Part shown: one piece after another, positions 25,445 to 27,306 of the stretch
Position numbering within the stretch: the stretch's first letter is position 1
Layout: each line of letters opens with the position of its first letter
Assembly (NCBI RefSeq): GCF_040451425.1
Contig: NZ_CP144374.1
Coordinates: forward strand, 1,342,501-1,406,500
DNA: 64,000 nucleotides
Reading direction: 5' to 3'
Origin: Thermodesulfovibrio sp. 3462-1
GTDB lineage: Bacteria > Nitrospirota > Thermodesulfovibrionia > Thermodesulfovibrionales > Thermodesulfovibrionaceae
Translations under genes and position numbers: made by a program
The notes under the pieces: model-generated
The model's database searches: none
Told to the model about the DNA's origin: nothing
What the model saw: only the letters and a program-made list of their open reading frames with translations

Positions 25445-25455
25445 AATGGTATAAT
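25425..25455 (+). promoter_or_regulatory. Candidate promoter of the three-hairpin/small-peptide unit
   Basis: A perfect TATAAT (25450-25455) is preceded by TTGATA at 25425-25430, 19 bases away. The expected transcript start, about 25462, coincides with the first base of the first hairpin. Confidence 0.55.
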
Positions 25456-25460
25456 TGATG

Positions 25461-25518
25461 TAGAGCATGAAGCTCTAAAAACCTCATGAAGAGGTTTAAA
25501 ATCCCTATGAAAGGGGGG
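25461..25518 (+). ncRNA. Leader RNA of three tandem hairpins with identical ATGAA loops
   Basis: Hairpin 1 is TAGAGC-ATGAA-GCTCTA (25461-25477). Hairpin 2 is AAACCTC-ATGAA-GAGGTTT (25479-25497). Hairpin 3 is TCCCT-ATGAA-AGGGG (25502-25516). The stems differ in sequence but remain paired, while the 5-base loop is constant, which points to a selected RNA structure. Hairpin 3 covers part of the G-rich ribosome-binding site of the downstream peptide. I know no named RNA family that fits. Confidence 0.65.
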
Positions 25519-25525
25519 TGCCAAG

Positions 25526-25585
25526 ATGATTAAGAAAGTTTCAGGAAAGGCAATGCCTACCTGCAAATGCAAAGGTTCCTGCTAA
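25526..25585 (+). CDS. 19-residue cysteine-rich peptide
   Basis: The peptide is MIKKVSGKAMPTCKCKGSC. ATG 25526 follows AAGGGGGGTG (25511-25520) at eight-base spacing or less, and the TAA is followed six bases later by a strong terminator. The small gene therefore has its own promoter, structured leader, ribosome-binding site and terminator. The C13-K-C15 and C19 pattern with five lysines suggests metal or cluster binding, or a modified peptide, but no such function can be shown. It was not counted among long frames because of its size. That it is translated is an inference. Confidence 0.55.
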   Translation: MIKKVSGKAMPTCKCKGSC

Positions 25586-25590
25586 GTTAA

Positions 25591-25620
25591 AAAGAGGGGG
25601 AAAATCCCCCTCTTTTTTTA
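25591..25620 (+). terminator. Intrinsic terminator of the small-peptide unit
   Basis: AAAGAGGGGG (25591-25600), a short A-rich loop and CCCCCTCTTTTTTTA (from 25606) form a very stable stem with a seven-T tract. It isolates the peptide unit from the TPR gene. Confidence 0.92.
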
Positions 25621-25647
25621 TTGCTTCAGAGTATGCCATAATATTTT

Positions 25648-27306
25648 ATGCGATATGTTTTATTTCTGATTTTTATTTTTTTTCTTTTTATTCCCCTACC
25701 AGCAAATGGAGAAGTTTATTTCAATTTCATGGCTGGATATTATGCCAGCATAAACGGAGATTTAAATAAAGCAATTGACTTTTACAAAGAAGCATTAAAA
25801 GAAGACCCATCATCAAAACTTCTCAAGATACTTTTAGCTGATTCATATTTAAATATTGACGAACTGGAAACAGCAAAGAGCTACATCAATGAAGTATTAA
25901 AGGAAGACCCTGAAAACACAAAGGCTTTACAGGTTCTTGCCTCCATTTATGTAAAGGAAAAGAAAATTAATGAAGCTATTGGAGTGTATGAAAAGATTCT
26001 AAGTCAATCACCAAACAGAATTGAAATGCTTTCAAAAATCGGTAATTTATATCTTATCTCCCAGAAGTATGATAAGGCAATTGAAACCTTTAAGAAAATA
26101 CTGAAAGAAGACCCTGACAATATAATGGCTTTACACTTTCTTGGAGTAATTTACATTGAAAAAAAGGATTTTCAATCAGCTCGGGAGAGTTTTAAAGCAA
26201 TTCTTCAACTTAATCCTGATTATGAGCCTGCATATACAAATTTAGGAGCAGTTGAGGAGATTTCCGGAAACTTTAAAGAAGCTGAGAAATATTTCAAAAA
26301 AGCATTGGAACTTAATCCTGAAAATCTTTTTGCAAGAGAACGCTTGATAAATCTATATCTTTCCCGTAAATCATACGGAGAAGCAATAAAAGAACTTGAA
26401 ACCCTGAAAGAACAAAAATCAGAGGCAGAGCAGATCCATGAAAAACTTGTTATTCTTTATTTACAGACAAAACAGTATGATAAAGCTCAGGAAGAACTTG
26501 AGTATCTCCTACAAAAACATCCAGATGATCTGAATCTTATGTACTATCTTTCCTTAGTTTACATTGAAACAGGAAAACTAACAGAGGCTGAAAAGATACT
26601 GAAAAGAATTATCTCAATCAATCCAAAGCAGATAAATGCCTTTTTAAATCTTGCCACAGTTTATTTAAAACAGAAAAATCTTAAAGAAGCTTTAAATATT
26701 TATGATGAGATTCTTCAGTTTGCAGATAATGTGCCTGAAATTTATATCTATGCCACAGAAACTGCTATGGATTTAAAGGATTATCAAAAAGCAAAGCAAT
26801 ATATTGAAAAAGCGCTCAATAAATTTCCTGATAATGCTGATATTAACTTTACTGCAGGGGTTGTTTTTGACAAACTTGGCAGATTTGAGGAAACAGAAAA
26901 GTTAATGAAAAAAGTTATTTCTCTTAATCCAGAGCATGCCGAAGCTCTTAATTATCTTGGCTACAGCTATGCTGACAGAGGCATTAATCTAAAAGAGTCT
27001 CTATCAATGATAGAAAAAGCAGTAAAACTGAAACCCAACAATGGATATTATCTTGACAGTCTTGGATGGGTTTACTTCAAACTTGGAGACAATAAAAATG
27101 CTTTAAAGTATCTTATTGAAGCAATAAAATATGTAAAAGATGACCCTGTAATTCTTGAACATCTTGGAGATGTTTATAAAGAACTCGGAAATTTTAAAGA
27201 AGCTCTTCAGAGCTGGCAGGAAGCATTAAAACATAATGAAAAAGAAGAAGGTTTAAAAGAAAGAGTAGAAAAAAAGATAAAAGAAATTCAACCTTTAATC
27301 AAATAA
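25648..27306 (+). CDS. Exported tetratricopeptide-repeat protein
   Basis: A 552-residue protein with a signal peptide (MRYVLFLIFIFFLFIPLPAN, cleavage near NGE) and about fourteen TPR units covering almost the whole mature chain (for example DLNKAIDFYKEALKEDPSS, YDKAIETFKKILKEDPDN, FKEAEKYFKKALELNPEN). The unit order around GYSYADRGINLKESLSMIEK and SLGWVYFKLGDNKNALKYL is typical of bacterial BTAD/NrfG-like scaffold proteins. It probably assembles periplasmic or outer-membrane partners. CATAAT lies five bases before the ATG with no ribosome-binding site. It overlaps ispE by one base. Confidence 0.85.
   Translation: MRYVLFLIFIFFLFIPLPANGEVYFNFMAGYYASINGDLNKAIDFYKEALKEDPSSKLLKILLADSYLNIDELETAKSYINEVLKEDPENTKALQVLASIYVKEKKINEAIGVYEKILSQSPNRIEMLSKIGNLYLISQKYDKAIETFKKILKEDPDNIMALHFLGVIYIEKKDFQSARESFKAILQLNPDYEPAYTNLGAVEEISGNFKEAEKYFKKALELNPENLFARERLINLYLSRKSYGEAIKELETLKEQKSEAEQIHEKLVILYLQTKQYDKAQEELEYLLQKHPDDLNLMYYLSLVYIETGKLTEAEKILKRIISINPKQINAFLNLATVYLKQKNLKEALNIYDEILQFADNVPEIYIYATETAMDLKDYQKAKQYIEKALNKFPDNADINFTAGVVFDKLGRFEETEKLMKKVISLNPEHAEALNYLGYSYADRGINLKESLSMIEKAVKLKPNNGYYLDSLGWVYFKLGDNKNALKYLIEAIKYVKDDPVILEHLGDVYKELGNFKEALQSWQEALKHNEKEEGLKERVEKKIKEIQPLIK

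Follow-up and report, generated by a model that had tools for sequence, protein, structure and literature searches.

We consider it likely that a 171-bp stretch in the genome of Thermodesulfovibrio sp. 3462-1 is a monocistronic gene for a peptide precursor modified by a radical SAM (rSAM) enzyme, that hairpins with ANGAA loops in its leader are read in pairs by a factor acting in trans, and that the modified product handles a metal. The precursor would belong to an apparently undescribed, clade-wide rSAM-peptide system whose 20-residue precursors are easily missed by gene callers, and an RNA regulatory motif lacking an Rfam family connects the peptide with genes for metal uptake and hydrogenase. 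In the literature, to which our access was partial, we found no prior description of the sequence or of rSAM RiPPs from this group.

The locus and its conservation in Thermodesulfovibrio

The locus lies in the window, the whole 64,000-nucleotide stretch of DNA that was analysed. A sequence-only reading of the window had described it as a stand-alone unit in which a promoter, three hairpins with identical loops, a Shine-Dalgarno site, a short open reading frame and a terminator are packed into 171 bp; direct reading and scans confirmed these parts at the following positions:

25447..25455, + strand: extended -10 promoter element TGGTATAAT, by direct reading, with TATAAT at 25450-25455, TG one base upstream and no clear -35
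25461..25477, + strand: hairpin 1, TAGAGC-ATGAA-GCTCTA, loop AUGAA, near the predicted RNA 5' end; a genus-level extra copy
25479..25497, + strand: hairpin 2, AAACCTC-ATGAA-GAGGTTT, loop AUGAA, the first of the two hairpins in the order-wide leader
25502..25516, + strand: hairpin 3, TCCCT-ATGAA-AGGGG, loop AUGAA, with a 3' arm overlapping the Shine-Dalgarno region; part of the covariance-model match described below
25513..25520, + strand: Shine-Dalgarno site GGGGGGTG / GGGGGGUG (GGGAGGUG in relatives), partly paired in prediction
25526..25585, + strand: precursor peptide open reading frame MIKKVSGKAMPTCKCKGSC, stop codon TAA at 25583-25585; present in 16/16 genomes of the genus, with a coding codon-position pattern and matches to an order-level profile
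25589..25620, + strand: Rho-independent terminator found by scan, a 13-bp stem at 25589-25617 followed by a T-run; present in relatives with altered stem sequence

Folding of the whole stretch gave a z of -3.8, to which the terminator contributes a large part, and the Shine-Dalgarno site has a predicted mean pairing of 0.73 at 37 C and 0.61 at 60 C. The two strands of the 64-kb window together contain 329 ATGAA words, of which only 4 are flanked by arms able to pair over 4 bp or more with 2 G-C pairs; 3 of these 4 are the leader hairpins. A sample of 878 kb from the same genome, made up of 40 stretches plus the window and the region around the maturase gene, contains just two loci with tandem ANGAA hairpins, compared with 0-1 for nine control loop words.

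Each of the 16 Thermodesulfovibrio genomes has a single copy of the element, 77-93% identical to that in the window. TATAAT is unchanged in 16/16 and is preceded by TGN in nearly all, and hairpin 1 is kept in 15/16, its stem being lost in the remaining genome (L023). Variable columns of the open reading frame are distributed over codon positions 1, 2 and 3 as 6/3/19 among the 16 genomes, which bears out the proposal of a real, translated peptide; judged by this pattern, the peptide is under purifying selection, with nearly all codon variation synonymous. Hairpins and loops are nearly invariant across the genus, with 2 compensatory cells only, and pairing is therefore weakly tested at this level. 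With stems that hardly vary within the genus, the earlier statement that stems change around a constant loop has its basis in the order-level relatives, among which it holds strongly.

The upstream DUF2148 gene adjoins the element in some genomes of the genus and lies on another contig or is missing in others. Since the upstream gene differs between genomes, the element is independent of it, and linkage to DUF2148 was rejected on the persistence of the element where that gene is missing or on another contig. The description of the unit as stand-alone is accurate for Thermodesulfovibrio and some other genera and needs correction in one respect, namely that a partner enzyme gene resides elsewhere in the genome. 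Immediately downstream, a TPR gene starts directly after TGCCATAAT (window 25633-25650), an extended -10 that is kept in the genus, and has no Shine-Dalgarno site; its mRNA is probably leaderless.

An RNA leader shared with metal genes

Among relatives within the order, the distal hairpin retains its ANGAA loop on very different stems: 30 cells are changed on both sides, all six pairs covary, 0/500 shuffles reach this level, and the signal collapses when the partners are slid. For the two-hairpin leader the corresponding values are 38 cells changed on both sides and 0/500 shuffles, again with collapse on sliding. Rows for these counts were picked by loop word (for the two-hairpin set also by a nearby GAAAGG) and not by pairing, with far-upstream matches and one promoterless locus removed manually; in an initial count made without selection, the paired fraction was 0.78, as opposed to 0.55 with permuted partners. 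Order-level covariation of this extent upholds the earlier suggestion of selection at the RNA level. A DNA operator was rejected on the grounds that half-sites vary freely while pairing is kept, and AUG loops as starts of mini-ORFs were rejected since neither frame nor length is conserved. An RNA thermometer was likewise rejected, the hairpins being predicted to be folded at 60-70 C with Shine-Dalgarno pairing easing slightly from 0.73 to 0.58.

R2, a covariance model of the two-hairpin leader, gave matches in 81/176 genomes of the order, mostly at the peptide gene. The match in the window spans 25479-25520 (42.7 bits), which identifies hairpins 2 and 3 as the conserved pair and hairpin 1 as an additional copy. 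Additionally, CCCTAWGAAAGGGAGG has 31 matches in the 176 genomes, 30 of them at the peptide leader and one inside coding sequence. RNA control is not universal, because 23 of the 49 CKCK peptides sampled outside the genus are without a clear ANGAA hairpin. No Rfam covariance model reached its gathering score at the peptide leader or at the ANGAA leaders of the TonB and hydrogenase operons discussed next, in agreement with the earlier remark that no known class fits.

The remaining R2 matches lie, in three genomes (L377-L379), at TonB receptor operons with CbiM, CbiQ, CobN, FecCD and TonB/ExbB-type genes. Clusters of this TonB type carry two to four tandem ANGAA hairpins, some of which share a strand with a U-tailed terminator. 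Another ANGAA leader (L380:6299-6338) is situated ahead of a [NiFe] hydrogenase operon that includes a maturation protease, and in a second genus a leader with the same upstream gene (L381:85-124, minus strand) coincides with the end of its contig; by synteny, it probably precedes a [NiFe] hydrogenase operon as well. The TonB and hydrogenase leaders come from few genomes; what supports them is the recurrence of their gene context together with the pattern of tandem loops.

The sole other tandem ANGAA site in the 878 kb (about half) sampled from the genome of strain 3462-1 is L404:9990-10240 (approximately G000:C1:1044990-1045240, minus strand), where four ANGAA hairpins are combined with an overlapping terminator. 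In order, the hairpins are ACCC-AAGAA-GGGU, GGUC-AUGAA-GGCC, GGCUC-AUGAA-GAGUC and CUCUC-AAGAA-GGGAG, and the terminator begins in the 3' arm of the second, ahead of the third. The leader precedes an operon encoding, in succession, a TonB receptor, a periplasmic binding protein (Peripla_BP_2), FecCD, an ATPase (ABC), CobN and ChlI; its R2 score is weak, at 16.7 bits. In the TonB leaders of L377-L379, one arm of an ANGAA hairpin, CUCCUAAGA, could pair with a second Shine-Dalgarno site, UCUUAGGAG, which immediately precedes the start codon; the arrangement resembles a switch. Cobalamin riboswitches are found in two of these uptake clusters (L377:14509-14683, minus strand, and L378:2068-2277, plus strand) before a different TonB receptor, such that two distinct RNA controls, a cobalamin riboswitch and an ANGAA leader, stand side by side; none was found at the ANGAA leaders themselves.

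Metal genes also accompany paralogues of the peptide with a CKCHxSC tail, of which 13/19 lie near metal P-type ATPase or YHS genes as against 0/50 of the other peptides; an ANGAA leader was found at 0/19 of these paralogues. The His variants (one a Tyr variant) occur in other genomes (L275, L277-L279, L313-L316, L324, L327, L330), mostly just 5' of genes for small secreted Met-rich proteins and YHS/HMBD P-type metal ATPases, and often near a YHS-pyridine-nucleotide oxidoreductase. Taken together, the leaders at uptake and hydrogenase genes and the paralogues linked to metal ATPases point to a role in metal handling, and the interpretation put forward from the sequence is partly supported, its link to metals through gene context. 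From gene content we infer that the regulon concerns nickel or cobalt, and that the His variants may concern copper or another heavy metal.

Such a context could also mean that the leader is itself a riboswitch or RNA sensor that binds nickel or cobalt directly and is not read by a protein, an explanation that would change only the regulatory half of our interpretation. The placement of ANGAA leaders ahead of cobalt/nickel-type uptake, CobN chelatase and [NiFe] hydrogenase genes would suit such a sensor, as would the alternative pairings with terminators and Shine-Dalgarno sites. However, two to four nearly identical small hairpins in which the loop alone is conserved resemble repeated protein-binding sites rather than a ligand pocket, and neither a NiCo nor a cobalamin riboswitch model matches at the leader itself. 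We therefore regard a direct metal sensor as unlikely, and as less likely than an element read by a protein.

The peptide family and its putative maturase

A profile of the 19-residue peptide matches in 101/176 genomes of the order, and an improved profile in 121/396 genomes of the phylum. The family peptide, of 20 residues with the consensus MxI[KR]KVS[KR]KxAxTCKC[KH]xSC, is found throughout the order and phylum, has three Cys in its 19-20 residues and has no NCBIfam match. Conservation covers both its N-terminal half and the Cys tail. A type I toxin was rejected on inspection, the peptide being basic and Cys-rich rather than hydrophobic.

In about 30 of 40 sampled loci of the order, a radical SAM gene, encoding a protein of some 380 residues, is located directly upstream of the peptide, mostly 15-85 bp away, and in other genera the peptide promoter TATGATATAAT is situated inside the 3' end of this gene. 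Downstream, some genera have TPR, ispE and prs in the order seen in the window, and because this order is common to both, the unit in the window is regarded as the same locus minus the enzyme gene. The genes seen near the peptide included no peptidase, exporter or immunity gene. At one locus (L205, G148:C26), the 3' end of the rSAM gene, the leader and the peptide are present in two tandem copies about 1.5 kb apart, with no full-length rSAM gene detected in that genome.

The enzyme, hereafter the maturase, carries CNLRCKHC (CNLxCxHC in the family, with invariant Cys), corresponding to the radical SAM CxxxCxxC motif, and its relatives match PF04055 at E 1e-21 or better. The C-terminal part has seven conserved Cys of the SPASM type, among them those of Gx4C and Cx5Cx3C. 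An AF2 (AlphaFold) model with pLDDT 93 aligns with SuiB at Z 26.5 over residues 5-387 and with SkfB at Z 26.4 over residues 10-367, the fold match to SuiB and CteB extending through residue 385-387. When the N-terminal domain was searched alone with Foldseek, the top matches were RREs (TbiB1, SuiB, PbtF; probability up to 1.00, best E 0.018); this domain has no Pfam match, and the maturase falls below every NCBIfam cut-off. On this modelled fold and these motifs, the maturase is an RRE-radical SAM-SPASM protein, combining an RRE, an rSAM core and a SPASM domain.

Across the 396 phylum genomes, 118 encode the maturase; 115 have both peptide and maturase, 6 the peptide only, 3 the maturase only and 272 neither (Fisher p ~1e-88, a value that ignores relatedness). 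Each near-complete Thermodesulfovibrio genome has exactly one strong orthologue (470-510 bits, the next best match scoring about 80 bits), which in strain 3462-1 lies at C1:691731-692876, 676 kb from the peptide; precursor and maturase are thus unlinked in this genus, and are connected genetically through adjacency in other genera and through co-occurrence. Two of the six peptide-only genomes (G113 and G138) are near-complete and yielded no maturase, and these constitute a real exception. In two genomes (G117:C18:4511-5634 and G121:C74:5769-7004), the maturase frame is broken or holds several in-frame stops, mostly TGA, with the peptide intact; frameshift, assembly error and recoding are all candidate causes. 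Spread of the maturase on plasmids was rejected, as a plasmid search returned no match.

That peptide and maturase co-occur across the phylum, usually in adjacent genes, and that the predicted maturase fold matches SuiB and SkfB make an rSAM-modified (RiPP) precursor the most likely identity of the peptide. The presence of an rSAM-SPASM maturase beside the peptide in most genera also gives substance to the earlier guess of a modified peptide. Alternatively, the peptide could act unmodified as a metallothionein-like metal binder, with the neighbouring rSAM enzyme acting on another substrate and the linkage being historical. Three Cys with lysines or histidine within 8 residues are compatible with such a role, as is the occurrence of CKCH paralogues in metal-ATPase loci without an adjoining rSAM gene. 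This explanation is nevertheless rather improbable, given that both genes are found in 115 of the 124 genomes having either, over numerous loci, including cases in which the two are unlinked, that conservation of the peptide takes in the N-terminal half along with the Cys tail, and that the enzyme is predicted to carry an RRE, a domain that holds the precursor peptide.

Proposed mechanism and comparison with known systems

In the model of a modified, RNA-controlled precursor, the RRE would bind the basic N-terminal half of the peptide (MIKKVSGK type), and the maturase would cross-link or otherwise modify the invariant TCKCKxSC tail, with a thioether as our first guess; the modified product may then handle a metal such as nickel, cobalt or copper. 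A trans-acting, probably dimeric, RNA-binding factor would read the ANGAA hairpins in pairs and stabilise the pair, which would free the Shine-Dalgarno site at the peptide gene and prevent formation of the overlapping terminator in the TonB/CobN operons. More speculatively, and with considerable doubt on our part, tandem ANGAA hairpins might constitute a new post-transcriptional code of the Nitrospirota that co-regulates nickel/cobalt uptake (TonB receptor, ABC transporter, CobN, CbiM), [NiFe] hydrogenase and an rSAM-made Cys metallopeptide, whose product would serve as a housekeeping nickel/cobalt (or copper) chaperone or metallophore, possibly imported by the co-regulated receptor.

The trans-acting factor might be sought in CsrA, with the hairpins acting as CsrA/Rsm sites at which translation is repressed. 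CsrA/RsmA sites are tandem pentaloop hairpins, one of them at the Shine-Dalgarno site. In the ANGAA leader, the pentaloops of the tandem hairpins resemble ANGGA, and one hairpin overlaps the Shine-Dalgarno site; one relative (L180) has AUGGA, CsrA is present in the genome of strain 3462-1, and Rfam gives a weak CsrC match (21.8 bits, where 61 are required). Against this, the GGA core is absent, as all three loops in the window are AUGAA and most relatives have ANGAA; CsrA shows no association with the peptide (p = 0.5); and CsrA is a most improbable reader, since 10 of the 19 loci sampled with hairpins belong to genomes lacking a CsrA match. Finally, a regulatory leader peptide, in which translation of the Cys codons would control the terminator and the downstream TPR gene, would account for a short open reading frame with a terminator immediately after it, but is barely credible when downstream genes vary between genera, the peptide sequence and not the Cys codons alone is conserved, and the TPR gene has an extended -10 of its own just before the start codon.

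Among known regulatory RNAs, the leader recalls the targets of ANTAR antiterminators (EutV, NasR, AmiR), which likewise consist of two small hairpins with conserved loop residues, a short linker and free stems, and in which the second hairpin overlaps a terminator stem, as we also read from the sequences of L404 and L377-L379. The ANGAA leader shares the tandem pair of small hairpins. At the peptide gene, however, the second hairpin overlaps the Shine-Dalgarno site rather than a terminator, and whereas ANTAR target RNAs have hexanucleotide loops with A at position 1 and G at position 4 (PMC3369931), the loop here is a pentaloop, A-N-G-A-A. Given loops of five bases with G at position 3, the leader is not classed among the ANTAR RNAs. 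No ANTAR protein turned up when about half of the strain 3462-1 genome was scanned for a crude motif. The distinction from CsrA/RsmA sites lies in an ANGAA loop without GGA and in hairpins that occur where CsrA does not.

With respect to the product, MNIO-made bufferins and methanobactin are likewise small ribosomal peptides tied to genes for copper or other metals (PMC12452194, PMC3621798). They differ from the present system in that the maturase here is of the rSAM-SPASM type and not an MNIO or methanobactin enzyme, and in that metal binding is proposed here from gene context. The closest parallels are SuiA/SuiB, SkfA/SkfB and above all SCIFF/CteA-CteB (ranthipeptides), in which a short precursor is likewise encoded beside an RRE-rSAM-SPASM enzyme, with a fold match over the whole chain. 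In contrast to SuiA, SkfA and SCIFF, the peptide has 19-20 residues with three Cys, it has no NCBIfam match, its maturase passes no NCBIfam maturase cut-off, no protease or exporter is seen nearby, and in Thermodesulfovibrio the maturase is unlinked; SCIFF and other ranthipeptides, whose products carry a non-alpha thioether, have six Cys in about 45 residues, a feature that three Cys in 19-20 residues do not reproduce. The system nonetheless recalls SCIFF because it is strictly conserved, widespread and without exporter or immunity genes. The near-universality of SCIFF in Clostridia was taken to argue against an antimicrobial role (PMC8326336). By analogy, the peptide gene probably yields a housekeeping product comparable to SCIFF or mycofactocin and not an antibiotic, since SCIFF in Clostridia and the peptide described here are both near-universal in a large clade and not scattered.
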